A stretch of 41,818 nucleotides of DNA from Streptomyces benahoarensis (GTDB taxonomy: Bacteria; Actinomycetota; Actinomycetes; Streptomycetales; Streptomycetaceae). Of this stretch, positions 26,841 to 38,928 are shown one piece after another; positions within the stretch are counted from its first letter, which is position 1, and the number at the start of each line of letters is the position of its first letter. The DNA is taken from positions 1 through 41,818 of the forward strand of contig NZ_VKJP01000015.1 in the NCBI RefSeq assembly GCF_007280575.1. Reading direction: 5' to 3'. The position numbers and the translations under genes are program-made. The notes beneath the pieces are model-generated. The model had not been told where the DNA came from, searched no databases, and saw only the letters and a program-made list of their open reading frames with translations.

Positions 26841-29054
26841 TCAGTCCGCCATCATGACCCGGTCGGGTTCCGGGGCAGGTGCGTTCGCACGGTGCTGCGG
26901 GTGGCCGCCCTTGGTGGGCCGTGGGCGGACCGGCCACCAGATGCTCCGTCCGAGGAGTGCGGTAAGGGCGGGGACCAGCACCAGCGAGAGGACGAGCGCG
27001 GAGAGCAGGATCCCGAGCGTCATTGCGAAGGCGATCTGCTCGTTGCCCGGGGTCGTGGCGAGGGTGGCGAAGGAGCCGGCAAGGACCAGGCCTGCGGTCG
27101 CGATGGCCGGTGTCGTGTGCTGCACCGCGCGGGCCACGGCGGCGCGGGCCGGGCCCGGTCGCTGCATTTCCTCCCTGATCCGGTCGCTGATCAGGATGTT
27201 GTAGTCGGTGCCCAGTGCCACGACGAACAGAAACAGCACGAGCGGGAGGGAGAAGTTGACGCCCGGCTTGCCGAGGACGTGCTGGAAGAGCAGGGTGGCG
27301 GCGCCGAGGGTGGCGGCGAAGCCGAGCCCGACGGAGAGCATCAGGATCACCGGTGCGAGCAGGCTGCGCAGGAGCAGCAGGAGGATCAGCGCGATCAGTG
27401 CGGCCGCGACCGGGAACACGATCTTCAGGTCGTGGTCGACGGCGGTGGAGATGTCGGCGTAGATCGCCGCCGTTCCGCCCACGTGTGCCGTCGTTCCGGC
27501 GGGTGTGTGCTGGGCGACCGCTGCCCGCACGGGTCCGGAGGCCAGGTCGCGGGCCTGCTGGCTCTGCGGGTCCGCGGTCGGGTAGAGGTCGATCCGGGCG
27601 GCGCGGTGGTCCTTGTTCAGGACGGTCCGTGCGACCTGGCCCACGCCCTTGACCTGGGTGAGAGCACGGGAGAGGCCGTCGAGCCGGCCTGCGGTGAGGG
27701 TGCCGCCATCAGTGGCGGTGACGAAGACGCTCGTCGGGTCCGACACTCCGGCCGGCAGCGCACGGGATATCTCGGTCGCGGTGGCCGCCGCAGGGGTCTT
27801 GGCAGCGGCGTTGCCCTGGCCGTAGTCCATGCGGATCCCGATCAGCCCGGCGGCCAGCGCGGCAAGCAGGGCGACGGAGGCGAACGTCATCGCCATCGGT
27901 CGTCGTGCGATCTGCGCCCCGAAGCGGGCGGCACGGCCCTCGCCGGGCTCGTGGCCAAGGGACTTGGAGGGCCAGAACATCTTGCGCCCGGCGGCCGCGA
28001 GCAGCGCCGGCAGCAGGGTGAGGCTGCCGAGCAGCATCACCAGGACCGCGACGGCGATGGCGGGGCCCAGCGAGCGGAACTGGCCGAAGGTCGCCACACC
28101 CAGTGTGGCGAACCCGGCCACGATGGTCAGCGCCGCTGAGGTGATCGCGGTGCCCACCCGTCCCGAGACCTGCCCGGCCGCCTCGCGGGCGGACTGCTCC
28201 GGCCGGGCGCGCAGTTGCTCGCGGAAGCGGAACAGCAGGAACAGCAGGTAGTCGATGCCGATGCCGAGCAGGACCACGCTGATCAGATCAGGGGTGCCCG
28301 CGTCGAGCTTGCGCCCGGTGAGTATCGCGGCACCCGCGACGGCTCCCCCCGCCACGCCGATGATCATGGCGACCGCGACCAGCGGCAGCAGGGCCGCCAG
28401 CACGCTGCGGAACACCAGCACGTTGATCAGCAGGATGAGCCCCATGAGGAGGGCGCCCCCGACCTTCGCGGCGGTCTCGTGGGAATCGGTGGTGTCGACG
28501 GTGTCGGCGAGACTTCCGGTGAAGCCGGTGCGCATCCCCGCCTCGGAGAACTGCGTCCGGGCGGCGTCCCGGAAGGCCCGGTAGACGCCCTGGACCCCCT
28601 TATCCGTACGGTTCCCGATCAGCTCGACGGAGAGCAGTTCGAAACTCCGGTCGGGTGCCACCATCGCCGGGGCGATCCGAGGTGTCTGGGAGCGGTCCGG
28701 GACCAGGAATTTCGGTCTGTCGTCCTCCCTGGGCATGATCACCCGACGCTGCGCCAGTTTCACCGCCTCGGCCTTGACCCGCTTCTGGTTGGCGGCGCCG
28801 AGAGCCTTGCCGTCGGACCGGGCGACCAGCATCGTCACGGTGGTGGCGTCGGGGTTCACCCCGAACTGTTCCTCGGCGATCTCCAGAGCGGCCGCCGAGT
28901 CGTAGCTTTTGGGCAGGAAATCCCCGGTCTGGTTCTGGGTGACGCGGCCGATCAGTGTCGGGGCCAGGGCGCTCAGCACGACACCCAGCACCGCCCAGAG
29001 GGCGATGACTTTCCACGGGTGTCTGGTGGAGTATCCGGTCAGGGCGCGGATCAC
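26841..29054 (-). CDS. MMPL-family transporter
   Basis: A 737-residue RND-superfamily exporter of the MmpL type. It has two repeats, each with a first membrane span (HPWKVIALWAVLGVVLSAL), a large outside loop, and a bundle of five spans. Each half carries the proton-relay G-x-D-Y motif: VLLGIGIDYLLFL and VALGTDYNILI. Relatives export lipids, glycolipids or antibiotics; the cargo here is unknown. GTG at 29054 follows GGAGGA at four bases; an in-frame ATG at 29081 is the alternative. It is divergent from a two-component system that probably controls it. Confidence 0.92.
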   Translation of the reverse strand: MIRALTGYSTRHPWKVIALWAVLGVVLSALAPTLIGRVTQNQTGDFLPKSYDSAAALEIAEEQFGVNPDATTVTMLVARSDGKALGAANQKRVKAEAVKLAQRRVIMPREDDRPKFLVPDRSQTPRIAPAMVAPDRSFELLSVELIGNRTDKGVQGVYRAFRDAARTQFSEAGMRTGFTGSLADTVDTTDSHETAAKVGGALLMGLILLINVLVFRSVLAALLPLVAVAMIIGVAGGAVAGAAILTGRKLDAGTPDLISVVLLGIGIDYLLFLLFRFREQLRARPEQSAREAAGQVSGRVGTAITSAALTIVAGFATLGVATFGQFRSLGPAIAVAVLVMLLGSLTLLPALLAAAGRKMFWPSKSLGHEPGEGRAARFGAQIARRPMAMTFASVALLAALAAGLIGIRMDYGQGNAAAKTPAAATATEISRALPAGVSDPTSVFVTATDGGTLTAGRLDGLSRALTQVKGVGQVARTVLNKDHRAARIDLYPTADPQSQQARDLASGPVRAAVAQHTPAGTTAHVGGTAAIYADISTAVDHDLKIVFPVAAALIALILLLLLRSLLAPVILMLSVGLGFAATLGAATLLFQHVLGKPGVNFSLPLVLFLFVVALGTDYNILISDRIREEMQRPGPARAAVARAVQHTTPAIATAGLVLAGSFATLATTPGNEQIAFAMTLGILLSALVLSLVLVPALTALLGRSIWWPVRPRPTKGGHPQHRANAPAPEPDRVMMAD

Positions 29055-29172
29055 GATGTCCTCCGGCGGACGGACTTGCATGCGGACGTCTGCCGGGGGC
29101 TCCCGGCCGGTATCCAGACCATCACCCCGGGGGCCGGGAAGCGTCCTGGCAGCGGATGATCCGGGCCGGGGC

Positions 29173-29218
29173 CCTGGGTCCTGCCCCGGCCAGGGACCAG
29201 GACCCAGGTACTGGTCCC
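29173..29218. promoter_or_regulatory. overlapping inverted repeats between MMPL and kinase genes
   Basis: CCTGGGTCCTG/CAGGACCCAGG (29173-29183/29198-29208) overlaps GGGACCAG/CTGGTCCC (29193-29200/29211-29218). Both are perfect and lie in the 270-bp divergent region. A plausible binding site for the response regulator at 30551, controlling both directions. Confidence 0.5.
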
Positions 29219-29327
29219 CATCCTGGTCTCGGGCCGCGAGCCGCCGCCGACGGTGCTGCCACCAGTGCTGCAGCCGCTGTGCAACTCTGTACCCGAGGCC
29301 GTAAGGCCGGACACAGGGAGAACAGAC

Positions 29328-30554
29328 ATGCGCAGGCGACGACACATCGGGCCCGGCGATGCCCGGGAGCCGCTGCACATCGACAGCGCCGGGCCGCCGT
29401 GGTCCCGCAACGACGCACTCGTGACCGGCGGGGCCTGCGCGATGAACCTGCTCAGCTACGTGTTCTTCGACGACCCCGACGGCCGATACGCCGTGAGCGT
29501 GGCCGGGTTCCTCCTCGTCGCGCTGGCAGCCCTGCCGTTGCTCGTCCGGCGCAGCCACCCGGTGGTGGCGCTCGCTGCCGTACTGGCACTCGATATGACA
29601 GCCACCCTGACCGCGCCGCTGCCCAGACACTTCGGTGCCGTCCTGCTGGTCGCCCTGTACTCGGTCGCCAGGGCCTGCACCGGCCGGGTGACGACGGTCG
29701 CGGTCGCCGCGACGGTGTCGCTGACGCTGCTGAGCCAGAGCCACGGCCGGATTCCAACCTGGCAGGACGCCGTTGCCTCGCCCCTCTCCTCCCTGATCGT
29801 CGTCGGCACCGCCATGGCGGTCAACCGCTGGCAGCGGGAGGTGGCGGCGAACCGCAGACTTCTCGCCGACCGTGCGGTGGCCGACGAACGCCGCCGCATC
29901 GCACGGGAGTTGCACGACATCGTGGCCCACCACATCACCACCATGCAGCTGATGGCCGGTGGAGCTCGGGCCAACCTCGCCGAACCGGAGGTGGTCCGGG
30001 ACGCCCTGGTCACCCTGGAATCCTCCGGGCGGCTCGCCCTGCGCGAGATGCGCCAGCTCCTCGATGTGCTGCGGGCCGGTGACGAAGTGGAGGCCGCGCC
30101 GGCGCAGCCCCAGCCGGGCGTAGACGACCTCGACCGTCTGGTGACCGAGTCCCGCCTTGCCGGACTGCCGACCGAGTTCAGCGTCCACGGGCCGCAGCGC
30201 CCGCTGCCGCCGACCGTCGGCCTCACGGTGTTCAGGATCGCCCAGGAGGCCCTCACCAACGCCCGCAAGTACGCGGGGCCTGCCCGCGCGTCCGTACGGC
30301 TGACGTATGGTCAGGATCGGGTCACCGTCGAAGTGAGGGACGACGGTGGGAGGACACCGCCGCAGGAGGGGGCGTCGTCGGTGGGCTCGGGCGGTTACGG
30401 CCTGATCGGCATGCGCGAGCGCGTCGCCCTGCACGGCGGCACCCTCACCGTCGGCCCGCAGACCGATGGGGGGTTCGCCGTAGTGGCCGACCTGCCGCTG
30501 ACCACGGACGAGGCGGCCGAGGCGGCCGTCCAGCACGAGGGGGCATACCGATGA
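29328..30554 (+). CDS. sensor histidine kinase (NarL-type partner)
   Basis: 408 residues. ATG at 29328 (MRRRRHIGPGD) follows GGGAGA. Four to five membrane spans (from AMNLLSYVFF to LIVVGTAMAV) form the sensor. A HisKA_3 domain follows with phosphoacceptor His in RRIARELHDIVAHHITTMQL. The ATPase domain shows N-box ALTNARKYA and a glycine box GGYGLIGMRERV. No HAMP or PAS domain is seen. It phosphorylates the regulator encoded next, with which it overlaps by four bases (ATGA). The signal is unknown; the divergent MMPL gene suggests membrane stress or drug export. Confidence 0.92.
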   Translation: MRRRRHIGPGDAREPLHIDSAGPPWSRNDALVTGGACAMNLLSYVFFDDPDGRYAVSVAGFLLVALAALPLLVRRSHPVVALAAVLALDMTATLTAPLPRHFGAVLLVALYSVARACTGRVTTVAVAATVSLTLLSQSHGRIPTWQDAVASPLSSLIVVGTAMAVNRWQREVAANRRLLADRAVADERRRIARELHDIVAHHITTMQLMAGGARANLAEPEVVRDALVTLESSGRLALREMRQLLDVLRAGDEVEAAPAQPQPGVDDLDRLVTESRLAGLPTEFSVHGPQRPLPPTVGLTVFRIAQEALTNARKYAGPARASVRLTYGQDRVTVEVRDDGGRTPPQEGASSVGSGGYGLIGMRERVALHGGTLTVGPQTDGGFAVVADLPLTTDEAAEAAVQHEGAYR

Positions 30555-31285
30555 CCGGAACCCGGCCGAACACACCGAGGATCAGGGTGCTGATCGTGGA
30601 CGACCAGCCGCTGGTCCGGCGCGGCCTGTCGCTGATCCTCTCCCCCGACCCGTCCTTCGAGGTGGTGGGAGAGGCCGAGAACGGCGCCCAGGCCGTCACC
30701 CTCGCCCGCCAACTGCGCCCCGACGTCGTGGTGATGGATATCCGGATGCCCGTCCTCGACGGGGTCGGCGCGACCGGGGAACTCGCCGCCACCGTGCCCG
30801 GCTGCCGGGTCCTGGCCCTCAGCACCTTCGACATGGACGAGTACGTCGTGGGTGCCCTGCGCGCCGGAGCCTGCGGGTTCCTGCCCAAGGACAGCTCGCC
30901 GGAGGACCTGAGCGCGGCGATCCGCACCGTCCACGCAGGCGAGGCCGTCGTCGCGCCGCGCCTGCTCACCCGGCTGATCTCCACCTATGTACGGGCCCCT
31001 CACGGCGCGTCGCAGCCACTCCCCACCGACCTGGGCGAACTCACACCCCGGGAGGTCGAGGTGTGGCGTCTGATGGCCACCGGTCTCGACAACACCGAGA
31101 TCTCCCGCACCCTGGACATCAGCCTCTCCACGGTCAAGAACTACATCACCAGCATCTTCGGTAAGCTCGACGTCCGTGACCGTGCCCAGGCGGTCATCGC
31201 AGCCTACGAATCGGGCCTGGTCACTGTCAGTGCGGCAGCCGGGGACTCGCCCGGCGACGGGCACAGCGGAACAAGATGCGAGTAG
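30551..31285 (+). CDS. NarL/LuxR-type response regulator
   Basis: 244 residues. The receiver domain starts RVLIVDDQPLVRRG; phosphorylation Asp is in VVVMDIRMPVLDG, the switch Thr/Ser in LALSTFD and the Lys in GFLPKDSS. The C-terminal LuxR helix-turn-helix is LTPREVEVWRLMATGLDNTE through STVKNYITSIFGKL. The start overlaps the kinase stop, so the two are made together. Likely target: the inverted repeats at 29173-29218. A short extra tail after SAAAG is probably unstructured. Confidence 0.94.
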   Translation: MTGTRPNTPRIRVLIVDDQPLVRRGLSLILSPDPSFEVVGEAENGAQAVTLARQLRPDVVVMDIRMPVLDGVGATGELAATVPGCRVLALSTFDMDEYVVGALRAGACGFLPKDSSPEDLSAAIRTVHAGEAVVAPRLLTRLISTYVRAPHGASQPLPTDLGELTPREVEVWRLMATGLDNTEISRTLDISLSTVKNYITSIFGKLDVRDRAQAVIAAYESGLVTVSAAAGDSPGDGHSGTRCE

Positions 31286-31286
31286 C

Positions 31287-31444
31287 AGGGCTCCGCCCGC
31301 AACACGGGACAGCGTTCGGCGCGGTCCGACAGCGGGCGGACTCGACCGTCGGCGACGCCGTCGTCATCGTCGTCCAGCGCGGTGAAGCTGTAGCGGCCCA
31401 GGCAGTTCAGGTTCTTGTGCTTGAGCGGGGACAGTCGGGCCACG
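31287..31444 (-). pseudogene. C-terminal remnant of a Tn3-family transposase
   Basis: Reading inward from the truncated IS6 copy, the frame gives VARLSPLKHKNLNCLGRYSF, then an Asp-rich linker and RVRPLSD. This resembles the C-terminus of Tn3-family transposases (L-S-P-x-x-x-x-x-x-N-x-L-G-R-Y-x-F ... L-R-P-L). The rest was lost at the IS6 junction. Confidence 0.55.
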
Positions 31445-31872
31445 GGCGCTGTCACGTTGTTGAGGGAGTGAGTGCCTGATGGTGTGTCGGGTGTGGAGGG
31501 GACGGGTTCCGGCTCCGTGCTCAGGCCGCGGCAGGCAGGCAGGCCGGCGACGTAGGTGATCTGCTCCCAGATGGCGAAGCGGGTGGTCATCTCGGCGCGG
31601 TAGTGGGCGGCGGTCATCAGGTGGCGGCGGGGCCGGAAGTGGGGTGAGATGCCGCTGAACGCGGCCAGGAACCGCTGGGCTCCGCCGACGCTGCGGAAGC
31701 CTTTCATGGCGCGTTCGCGCTGCCGGGTTGGCTGATGACTGTTCTCGGCCCGGTTGTTGAGGCCCTTGTGGGAATGGTGCTCGACCGAGGGCATCACCTC
31801 GCGGTGGGCCACGCCGTAGGAGCGGAGCTTGTCGGTGACGATCACCCGCGGCACCGAGCAGGTCGTCTTCAG
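31445..31872 (-). mobile_element. truncated IS6-family copy (3' half)
   Basis: It carries the same transposase sequence as the element at 19369-20234, from LKTTCSVPRVIVTDKLRSYG to LNNVTAP, with the same terminal repeat (GGCGCTGTCACGTTG at 31445). It is on the opposite strand and cut at about 31872. By eye the protein is identical over the shared part. It retains two of three catalytic acids and one end only. Confidence 0.85.
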
Positions 31873-32189
31873 CACAGGCCATTGCGGCCGACTCACGGCG
31901 GCGCGCCTCCTACACGCCCGAGGCCCCAGCACCACAGCAGCCCGCTCAACACGAATCCCTCCGTGCCCCACAGTCCCACCAGCAGCGGACGACCTAGCGC
32001 AGCTGTTGGTCACAGCGCACTGCATCGGCCCGCCTCGCGAAGACCCCAGGAGGGCGCAGTCGCCTCGCGACGGTGGGACAGCGACGGCTTTGGCCGCTCC
32101 CCAGGACCCTCCAGAGGGCGTGTACCTCTTACGGCGACCAGGAACCCGGCCATGCAGCCCTGTGAGTGCGGTGTGCGGCGCTGGGCGAA
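31873..32189. other. unassigned stretch
   Basis: Between the IS6 truncation point and the zinc-finger gene. No frame shows consistent coding bias together with a start; no repeat was recognised. Confidence 0.35.
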
Positions 32190-32447
32190 CTACGACGACG
32201 GAGGATTGCCCTTGGCGCCTTTGGGCCGGCGACGTCTCCTGCTGGCCGTGCGGAGCGGCGGCAGGCTCTTGGGGTCGATGCCATGGGCATGGAGCCGTTC
32301 CCCGTGGACGCCGTTCTTCGGCCGGTCGAAGCACCGCTCGCCCTGCATCGCCTGGCACTTCGGGCAGCGGCCCTGGCGGCGGGGATCGGACGGCTGCCGG
32401 GGGAGCCGGAAGACCGTCATCGGGGTCCCGTAACTTCCGCGCGGCAT
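32190..32447 (-). CDS. small zinc-finger protein
   Basis: 85 residues starting MPRGSYGTPMTVFRLPRQ; ATG at 32447 follows AAGGAG. A treble-clef-like CPKCQAMQGERCFD with HGERLHAHG downstream matches the short C-x-x-C...C...H-x-E-R-x-x-A-H zinc-binding proteins common on actinomycete phages, plasmids and integrative elements. The C-terminus is strongly basic (RRRRRPKGAKG), suggesting nucleic-acid binding. Function unknown. Confidence 0.7.
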   Translation of the reverse strand: MPRGSYGTPMTVFRLPRQPSDPRRQGRCPKCQAMQGERCFDRPKNGVHGERLHAHGIDPKSLPPLRTASRRRRRPKGAKGNPPSS

Positions 32448-32712
32448 CAGCTGCTCCTTGCTGGCGTCGGCACCTGCGGTGCAACGGGCCGGGATGGGAT
32501 GCGGAGCTCGTTGAACAGCAGCACGAGCGCGGCGGCTGCTCGACCGGAGGCCGCTGAAACGGCCCTGCCCGCAGCAGGCCGACGAAGGCACATGATCCTG
32601 TTTCTCGTCATGCCGATGCCAACGCCGACTCGCGGCGATCCGTCATGGCCACTGGTCCGACCGGGGGACGACGCACATTTGGCGATCTTGCGAGACCGGG
32701 CCCGGAGCCGTC

Positions 32713-33821
32713 CTACCGGCCGGGTGTCGTACCGGGCCTGGCGGCAGGGGGCGGGACGTCGGGGCGCACGGGCTGAGCCGTCGGTCCGGGGCGCCGCGGG
32801 GGAGCAGGCACGTCCGCGGCCCGTTCACGCGCTCCCTCAACGATCGTATGGGCCTGCTCTGCGTAACGACCGGGCAGCCGGGGGCCATTCTGCTCGGGCC
32901 GTGCTTGCCAGACGGCCTCTGCGGCATTCCAGTCGCCGGGCGGGCCTGGGGCCAACAGCGGAGTGAGGAGGCCTCGGCCGCCATCGCCGCCTCCTTCCAG
33001 GTGATGCAGCCCTGCAGCCCGGGCACCTGACGGGCTGCCGCCGGGTAGCGGTCAGGCCAGGCAGGCCCTGGAGGCTGGAATGCTGAGGGGAGAACGAGAT
33101 CCACCCCAGGGGCGCGAGTGAGCCGCCGAAGGCGGGCCTCGGTGCGCAGGGCCAGCTGTGCGTAGCGGCCGTCGACGTTCTCGCGCTGGCTTATGAGGAG
33201 GATGTCCGCCAGGTCGCGGTAGCGGCTGGAGGGGGAGCCCTGGTGCCGTTCGTACATGGCACAGACCTTGTCTGCCAGGTGGTTGACGATCGGGTAGAGC
33301 CTTGCCTTGGGCCAGTCGGCGGGCCAGGCCAGGTCGATCAGAGGCGCGATGCGACGCACGTCGGGGGCTGCACTGGGGGCATGCCCGGTGACCACGTCCA
33401 CCTTCACCACGCCGACTTCGTGCGTGCCCACGTGCACCCGGAAGATCTGCTTCGCGCCGGCAGCCCCGTTCTCGTGCATCGACGTCCGCGTGGGAGTGAA
33501 GCTCATGTAATCGTCCAGATCGTGCGCGGCAGCCTTGAGAAAGTCGGCGACCGCCTCACCTATCTCGCCTCCGGCGCTGCGCTGGATGTCGATGTCCCGG
33601 CTCAACCGGGCCGCTGCGGCGTACCGCATGAGCAGCGCGTGACCACCCTTGACGATCCAGGCGTCAGGCTGAGCATGGAACACCCGGGCGACCAAACGAC
33701 TGAAGAAAAAGGAACTGAGCACGTCCGCCACAGGCACACCCTCACTGCGGGCCATGAGCTGCGCCTTGTGCTTGAGCGCGCCGTAGAACGCCGCTGGGGT
33801 CGCGTAGGTATCTCGGGCCAT
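32713..33821 (-). pseudogene. abiEii: AbiEii-type nucleotidyltransferase toxin (frameshift near C-terminus)
   Basis: ATG at 33821 (MARDTYATPAAFYGALKHKA) has AGGAG upstream. The nucleotidyltransferase core is seen in WIVKGGHALLMRYA and LSRDIDIQRS, and a later motif in KARLYPIVNHLADKVCAMYE, as in the AbiEii/AbiGii family (type IV toxin). About 285 codons read to GCITWKEAAMAAEASS at about 32960. The family-like end (LAPGPPGDWNAAEAVWQ) then continues in another frame to 32713. In the unshifted frame a spurious tail runs to 32643. The core is intact, so a working toxin is still possible. Confidence 0.8.
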
Positions 33822-33940
33822 CGTGCTCCTGTAACGTGCGGACACAGGCTCTCAGCCTATGGCCGCACACGAGGAGCGAGTGTGTCGGATGAAAACTCGT
33901 GCGAGCACGGCGCTGCGAGTAGGAGACCCCTGCCCGGACC

Positions 33941-37361: not shown

Positions 37362-38264
37362 TCATCCCGGAGCACCCGCTACGGAAGGTACGGACGGGAG
37401 GGAGATCCGCTGCCCTTCGGGGCCGACGTCCACGCGCAGGTCCCGCCAGTGGGCGGCGTCCGCGACGGCCGGCCAGCCCAGAACGTCGTAGCCGAGAGGC
37501 ATGCGTTGGCCGCGGGTGCGCATGAACTCCACCCGCCCGACGAAACATCCTTGCGCCGTCCCGGGGCCGGTGCTCTCCAGTCGCAGCAGCAGGTCCCAGC
37601 CGAGCGGGCTGTCCAGGGGGACGACCAGGACGCCTCGGGGCGCGAGCTGGTCCAGCCATGCCTGGGGAATACGGCGCACGGAGGCGGTGGCGACGATGCG
37701 ATCGTACGGGCAGTCGGCGAGGTGGCCGAGCTCTCCGTCGCCGGTGACGACGTGCGGGCGCAGGCCCAGCTCGGCGAGCCTCACGGCGGCCCCGGCGGCA
37801 AGCTGACCGTCGATCTCGATCGTTGTCACGTTCTCCCCCCCGACGCGGGCGGCCAGCAGCGCCGTGGTGTAGCCGGTGCCCGTTCCGACTTCCAGGGTCT
37901 TCTCGCCCGGCCGCGGTGCGAGATTCCGCAGCAGCTCGACGATCACCGCTGACGACGAGATGCTGGAGGTCAGCGCTCCCCGGGCGTCGTCGGTGGGCGC
38001 GACGGCCCCATCGTCGATCTGGGTGATCAGCGGATCGCCCGGAGCGTAGACGCGAGTCAGCCACGCGTGAGGGGCGGAGGCGCGGTCGATGAGGGTGTGC
38101 AGGCCGTCCGGCCTCGGCCGGTGCCACCACACCCGGTCAGGGACGAAGTGCTCCCTCGGGAGCGCGCTGAACGCATCGCGTAGCCAGGGGCAGCCGTCGA
38201 ACTCGCCGTAGCGGGCCATCTCCTCGGCACAGGCCCGGCGCAGGTCCTCGGCCGTCGCCGTCAC
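37362..38264 (-). CDS. PIMT-like protein O-methyltransferase
   Basis: 300 residues; GTG at 38264 (VTATAEDLRRACAEEMARYG). SAM-binding motif I is LEVGTGTGYTTALLAARVGG, then motif post-I VTTIEIDG, and motif II YDRIVATASVRRIP. Upstream SISSSAVIVELL matches the family's substrate-side motif, and a PREHFVP segment lies near the start. This is the protein-L-isoaspartate O-methyltransferase fold, which methylates aspartyl side chains. The C-terminal domain is longer than in housekeeping PIMT, as in RiPP-modifying homologues. A possible short peptide gene ends two bases before its start. Confidence 0.85.
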   Translation of the reverse strand: MTATAEDLRRACAEEMARYGEFDGCPWLRDAFSALPREHFVPDRVWWHRPRPDGLHTLIDRASAPHAWLTRVYAPGDPLITQIDDGAVAPTDDARGALTSSISSSAVIVELLRNLAPRPGEKTLEVGTGTGYTTALLAARVGGENVTTIEIDGQLAAGAAVRLAELGLRPHVVTGDGELGHLADCPYDRIVATASVRRIPQAWLDQLAPRGVLVVPLDSPLGWDLLLRLESTGPGTAQGCFVGRVEFMRTRGQRMPLGYDVLGWPAVADAAHWRDLRVDVGPEGQRISLPSVPSVAGAPG

Positions 38265-38266
38265 CG

Positions 38267-38394
38267 CTAGTCCTCGTCTTCCGGCTCGGGCACCGGGTTG
38301 CCCGGATCCCCGGGGAGGAGTAGGGGCCGCCGATCTGCCCGTCGCCCGACTGCCGGTCATCCCCTCGCACTGTCCCTGCATGACGATGACGCAT
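38267..38394 (-). CDS. possible RiPP precursor gene coupled to PIMT-like gene (frame break)
   Basis: ATG at 38394 has AAGGAG eight bases upstream and reads MRHRHAGTVRGDDRQSGDGQ, then IGGPYSSPG. After the run CCCCGGGG (about 38306-38315) a different frame gives DPGNPVPEPEDED and stops at TAG 38267-38269, two bases before the methyltransferase GTG. One added base in the homopolymer joins both into about 42 residues with an acidic, Gly/Pro-rich tail. The arrangement (short peptide plus PIMT homologue only) resembles imiditide loci. Alternatively the methyltransferase frame itself continues upstream. Confidence 0.4.
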
Positions 38395-38928
38395 ACGCCA
38401 TTCTCCTTCGCTCGCCCTCCGCTCACCGTAGAGCCTCGGCGGGAGGCAGTGGGAGCAATTCTCGCTACCTGAACGGGTGTTGCATTCGACGGATACGCGC
38501 TGAGGCGTTGCCGGAGGGCGGCTCACCGGAGCGTCCGGCTGGCCCTCGCCGGGAGTTGGCACACCCTCCGGGCCCCCGAGAAGTGGTGTGCGCCCGGACT
38601 CCAACAGCGTCACGATGCCGTCGGCCTGCGCGCGTGCGCGATCCCTACCGCGGCCAGGGACTGGAAGGCCAGTGGCTACGCCCTGGTGGCGGCTGCCACG
38701 GCCCCCTTGCAGTTCGCCTCGGCACTGCGCGGCTCGGTGCATACCCTGCGTCTTCCTACGCATCAGGGCGGACGTTTCGCGCGACGCCGAACAGGGCCCA
38801 TCCCACTGTCACTCGGGCACGCGGCTGATCCCGGTGTAGAGCACGAGCCCGGGGTCGTCGAAGGGGTGCAGTCGCCGACCACCCCTCAAACAGTGCGGGC
38901 ACAGAGAACAGTTCCTCCTCTCTGCTCG
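38395..38928. other. no gene recognised
   Basis: Several overlapping frames are open on both strands, but none combines a ribosome site with consistent coding bias. The promoter of the peptide/methyltransferase pair should lie at its left end. Confidence 0.3.

Follow-up and report, generated by a model that had tools for sequence, protein, structure and literature searches.

We found that a PIMT-type methyltransferase gene and the small gene directly before it form a conserved two-gene unit in Streptomyces benahoarensis and its relatives, that the short enzymes encoded by such units make up a single clade, and that the small gene changes frame in the window, the whole 41,818-nucleotide stretch of S. 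benahoarensis DNA that was analysed. The unit is likely to be a two-gene RiPP cassette working like those of the imiditides or type I pamtides, in which the methylation of an Asp would lead to an aspartimide or isoAsp.

Layout of the Cassette in the Window

The following features, all on the minus strand, make up the locus:

37362 to 38264, minus strand: PIMT-type methyltransferase of the short clade, an open frame of 300 aa with its start GTG at 38264
38267 to 38394, minus strand: frameshifted precursor gene with start ATG at 38394, stop TAG at 38269-38267 and the frame change inside, called from two adjoining profile matches in two frames and from unbroken homologues at the same position
38305 to 38320, minus strand: frame-change site, with the CCCCGGGG run at 38308-38315, placed by DNA alignment
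38402 to 38408, minus strand: Shine-Dalgarno-like AAGGAGA, seven bases before ATG 38394

As the initial annotation had noted, the methyltransferase starts two bases after a small frame, these two bases separating the TAG from the GTG. The short frame, which ends in GDPGNPVPEPEDED, has no usable start, the sole start codon after the previous stop being a GTG eight codons before its end. The annotation had also described a better-initiated frame meeting it, and this is borne out: the frame from ATG 38394, with AAGGAGA upstream, reads MRHRHAGTVRGDD... / MRHRHAGTVRGDDRQSGDGQIGGPYSSP... and joins the GDPGNPVPEPEDED frame in the CCCCGGGG run. Other minus-strand genes of the window encode an MMPL protein of 1244 aa (26844-30575), a DDE-domain transposase (31207-32484) and an AbiEii-type nucleotidyltransferase (32646-33845).

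Conservation of the Precursor and Its Linkage to the Enzyme

The peptide is unbroken in 24 other loci, each time directly upstream of a homologous methyltransferase, with the consensus Rxxx[DN]G[QE]VGGxx[SA][SA]PG[DE][PA]G[NS] followed by an acidic tail (type A). When the 21-codon core of eight precursors was compared in all 28 pairs, the differences at codon positions 1, 2 and 3 numbered 21, 14 and 303; they lie almost only at third positions, so the precursor is a selected gene and the peptide is under purifying selection. A profile built from 17 relatives' precursors matched the window's own genome, at E <= 0.05, in two adjoining places only, 38308-38364 (2.1e-8) and 38267-38314 (1.2e-3), which lie in two frames. 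Across 392 genomes of the genus, the same profile gave eight places at E <= 1e-14, all eight beside an enzyme of the short clade; the next matches were the first piece in the window (2.1e-8), one in genome G342 (2.8e-8), the second piece in the window (1.2e-3) and weak ones from 0.0017.

The relatives were collected from several sources. In the genus survey (392 genomes, enzyme matches at E <= 1e-54), 13 genomes, the window's own included, had a match, at 16 places comprising 12 short and 4 long enzymes. An unbroken peptide lies just upstream of each of the three closest genus enzymes (72, 67 and 62% identity); the peptide of L036, which sits within L049 of Streptomyces pinistramenti, is MQRREAGVVRWGDDRQSGDGQVGGPYSSPGDPGNPAPQPDDGDED. 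A scan of species genomes, from which the best 80 of 556 relatives were used, gave 14 short-clade loci (L049-L060, L075 and L108), ten with a type A peptide, two (L059 and L060) with a different acidic peptide at the same position (type B), and two decayed (L058 and L108); a second methyltransferase lies near L059. L160 and L163 came from a search at the level of the order. Matches were present in 143 plasmid records, seven of which were inspected, five being type A (S. cyaneofuscatus, S. anulatus, S. globisporus, MMBL 11-1 and MBT27) and two type B (S. rimosus pPZG101 and NBC_01304); the peptide is annotated as "hypothetical protein" in five of the six annotated plasmid records. The total comes to 24 intact type-A precursors and the broken one of the window. 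This tally counts once the repeats L162/L164 (of L052/L053) and L211 (of L041), counts both L075 and L163, which share one peptide, and leaves out L058 (peptide reduced to the tail), L137/G342 and L165/G626 (frameshifted enzymes), the upstream region of L166 and the N-terminally truncated L108, the last also being left out of the tree.

Several loci show arrangements of their own. The cassette of the S. anulatus plasmid is directly followed, on the same strand, by another class I SAM-dependent methyltransferase (L206:4928-5650). L046 and L048 (G339 C1:102942 on the plus strand and 8808634 on the minus strand) encode the same enzyme and the same peptide; the two copies lie at roughly opposite positions of a single contig and may belong to terminal inverted repeats. 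Both cassette types stand in tandem at L168/L169 (G607 C1:145672-147515): the frame of a short enzyme, which has a type-B peptide, runs on with no stop codon into the following precursor (GDHSKPQPAEEPKGPPDNTDGQ...HRKDK), and a long-type enzyme comes after that precursor.

In the relatives, the methyltransferase frames do not extend upstream across the peptide region, and a conserved peptide precedes the enzymes, the two points on which the initial annotation had made its peptide gene depend. Besides the cassette and its reading-frame shadows, no ORF recurs in two or more other loci (14 loci, flanks of up to 6 kb).

Fold and Constraint of the Methyltransferase

The window enzyme matches the Pfam PCMT/PIMT family (1.9e-26), and its AlphaFold2 model (mean pLDDT 94.9) has a PIMT fold: the 13 best rows of a structural comparison are PIMT-family entries with Z 20.1-27.4, the following row having Z 12.8. 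In its catalytic fold, the model resembles the repair PIMTs of E. coli (3LBF; Z 26.4, 204 residues, rmsd 2.1) and Thermotoga maritima (1DL5; Z 26.2, 243 residues, rmsd 3.1). It differs from a canonical repair PIMT by the peptide gene linked to it and by a predicted C-terminal stub, with a helix at 270-275 and strands at 277-281 and 284-288. The extended C-terminus of the initial annotation holds relative to an E. coli-type PIMT, but the enzyme is without the block of 71-89 residues found in all 14 aligned long relatives. The best NCBIfam match is TIGR04188, a methyltransferase of graspetide clusters, over residues 68-316 of the 354-aa frame; at 217.8 bits against a curated cut-off of 380, this assignment is ruled out, as is TIGR04364, far below its cut-off. 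No match to an ATP-grasp, as in graspetide clusters, was seen in the 10 neighbouring ORFs of the window. The same genome has a second, long-type PIMT homologue with 42% identity (L002, G000:C41:1737-2390), with no obvious precursor within 420 bases upstream.

The end branch of the window enzyme is long (0.38 and 0.43, that of its sister being about 0.1). Decay was nevertheless rejected, as dN/dS is 0.27-0.34 (0.32 against the sister) and the enzyme is the odd one out at none of the otherwise invariant alignment columns; judged from its sequence, it looks intact.

Alternatively, the enzyme could do ordinary isoaspartate repair, with the peptide as a neighbour or regulator rather than its substrate, as its fold would allow and as the Asn-Gly of some precursors, which would yield isoAsp, the classic repair substrate, might suggest. 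We consider this very improbable: the enzyme has a patchy distribution, the peptide is linked to it in every intact type-A copy examined, selection on the peptide is strong, and the neighbours are not shared.

The Frame Change in the Window

In a DNA alignment, the window is exactly one base short compared to all eight relatives, just before TCCCCGG. The window precursor is thus frameshifted, either by mutation or by a sequence error; a programmed frameshift was rejected because the homologous precursors are read in one frame. It is quite possible, if somewhat short of probable, that the change is an error of the draft and that the source strain has an intact cassette. The assembly is a draft of 814 contigs and the enzyme is under normal constraint, as described above, both of which agree with an error. 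Against this, decayed copies exist elsewhere, namely L137 (G342 C17:1103424), L165 (G626), L058 (S. zagrosensis) and L108 (S. typhae), and a crude, home-made frame model gives no excess of frame breaks in the genome concerned, with 32.4 predicted switches per 100 kb (308,442 bases) compared to 42.0 in a single-contig control (300,000 bases), or 23.0 and 28.7 with a stricter penalty. Since most of these switches must be false positives and the site at 38.3 kb is itself not flagged, this weak model shows only that the draft is not visibly worse. In the decayed copies, the enzyme is frameshifted or truncated and the peptide is missing or shortened; the G342 copy has a frame change in its enzyme and a peptide without its DGQVGG half. 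If the frame change is a real mutation, the window copy may no longer make a product, though its enzyme looks intact, and the constraint on the enzyme implies that any such loss would be recent.

A Clade of Short Enzymes with Acidic Precursor Tails

The 26 short enzymes form one clade with support of 100/99. When 21 short enzymes were aligned with 14 long ones, the 71-89-residue block of the C-terminal region was absent from all 21 and present in all 14, a shorter C-terminal part remaining in the short ones. Counted from the first aligned residue, 20 of the 26 short enzymes are under 300 aa, and the six annotated plasmid copies have 288-308 aa. The pamtide census is described as having excluded proteins shorter than 300 aa (PMC10787088), so that it may have overlooked some of the branch.

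The net charge of the C-terminal part averages +2.2 (-4 to 8) in the short enzymes and -4.1 (-9 to -1) in the long ones. The last 12 residues of the precursor have a net charge of -8 to -5 in 25/25 type A peptides, with a Lys or Arg in one, and of -5 to -1 in six type B peptides. For the long enzymes, a first tail comparison on 24 hand-picked precursors was replaced by one in which an automatic rule chose the candidates at all 66 long-enzyme loci among the best 80 of the 556 relatives. In the 49 loci with a candidate ORF, some of them certainly spurious, the tails average +0.16 (-6 to 4), contain Lys or Arg in 44 cases and reach -5 or below in one, so that the tails beside long enzymes do contain basic residues but are close to neutral overall rather than strongly basic. 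That the charge changed jointly on enzyme and precursor is an attractive reading, since an acidic loop in the C-terminal region of the imiditide enzyme NmaM is reported to matter for modification (PMC13001092); being one event on the tree, it allows for no statistical test.

Putative Modification Site

We infer a mechanism in which a precursor of about 40 aa is made from the peptide gene and would then be methylated, with SAM, by the PIMT-type enzyme on an Asp side chain; attack of the next backbone amide on the methyl ester would give an aspartimide that could open to isoAsp. The acidic C-terminal tail might serve as a handle for the enzyme. Aspartimide formation requires the amide NH of the next residue, which proline lacks, and both Asp-Gly and Asn-Gly are classic succinimide sites. 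The likeliest modified residue would be the [DN] of [DN]G[QE][VI]GG, and the site probably lies there rather than in GDPG, whose Asp is followed by proline and is thus an unlikely target. The initial annotation had taken the Asp-Gly/Gly-Asp-rich peptide to fit aspartimide chemistry; this would hold for DG[QE][VI]GG and is unlikely for GDPG.

No Asp outside the tail is common to all precursors. In GDPG, the Asp is replaced by Glu in L004 and L005 and stands before Pro in the others, except for L050 (GDAG). The remaining conserved position outside the tail, that of [DN]G[QE][VI]GG, is Asp in 18 of the 24 intact precursors and in the window, and Asn in the other six, with at least two changes on the enzyme tree, of which the well-supported branches alone force one. 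Type-B peptides, which belong to the same clade, can be aligned with type A only with difficulty. L057 of S. zagrosensis has Asn-Gly at the presumed site (Asn8), and its only Asp residues are two that stand before Pro (20 and 29) and the penultimate residue, 35; this implies that either the Asn-Gly serves after deamidation or the enzyme targets the tail.

This last precursor, together with the many Asp and Glu of the tails, is what speaks for a different chemistry in the same cassette, in which the carboxylates of the acidic tail would be methylated, or a methyl ester would be stable, and aspartimide would not be the product. We regard this as unlikely, because characterised relatives are described as making aspartimide or isoAsp (PMC10787088) and because conservation is far higher in the [DN]G[QE][VI]GG stretch than in the tail. 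Aspartimide formation, probably at [DN]G[QE][VI]GG, is the reading we retain.

It can be proposed, tentatively and with considerable doubt, that the clade is a reduced branch of the aspartimide RiPPs with reversed charge, which has lost much of the supposed recognition domain, has strongly acidic tails, and in part uses Asn-Gly for Asp-Gly, the enzyme then acting on spontaneously deamidated Asn (isoAsp). If true, a repair-type PIMT activity would have been put to biosynthetic use in part of the branch.

Comparison with Imiditides and Type I Pamtides

Imiditides and type I pamtides are described as two-gene systems with linear, Gly/Pro/Asp-rich precursors of about 45 aa, whose PIMT homologue puts a methyl group on one Asp; the resulting ester cyclises to an aspartimide that can be hydrolysed to Asp or isoAsp, and mass shifts of +14 and -18 Da are seen (PMC10787088, PMC13001092). 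Named members are NmaA-NmaM of Nonomuraea maritima and SpaA-SpaM of Streptomyces sparsogenes (PMC13001092, PMC10787088). The class is young, and its recognition rules and biological role are presented as not yet settled (PMC13001092). A natural clade with acidic tails and without much of the supposed recognition domain would offer a direct test of these rules, and with precursors that have either Asp or Asn at a single site, the question of the site becomes answerable. Among the titles and abstract openings that literature searches on imiditides, pamtides and aspartimide RiPPs brought up, none describes a branch of this kind.

The cassette differs from the described members in several respects. 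The full extra C-terminal domain is missing in the short enzymes. The WXXXGXP motif reported near the C-terminus of imiditide enzymes (PMC13001092) is, in its strict form, absent from the window enzyme (YDVLGWP) and from most clade members; its W is found in four of 13 clade members (L057-L060), in a stretch that the alignment does not show to be the same motif. The tails of the clade are strongly acidic, whereas the reported precursor C-termini have basic residues, and part of the clade has Asn-Gly at the presumed site. As the full domain is missing and the modification is putative, imiditide membership is unproven.

Like the imiditides and type I pamtides, the cassette consists of two genes, with a small Gly/Pro/Asp-rich precursor directly before a PIMT homologue, is found mostly in Streptomyces, and has no other RiPP enzyme recurring nearby, the precursor being frameshifted in the window. 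Length and composition also agree: 17 precursors have 36-47 aa with Gly 18.4, Pro 15.5 and Asp 17.8%, compared to Gly 17.3, Pro 16.8 and Asp 10.2% in type I pamtide precursors (PMC10787088). In summary, the imiditide-like two-gene locus proposed in the initial annotation is supported by the conserved peptide-enzyme unit of the relatives and by its fit to the published descriptions, and in our best reading, the cassette works like an imiditide cassette, in a clade set apart from the described members as these have been described.
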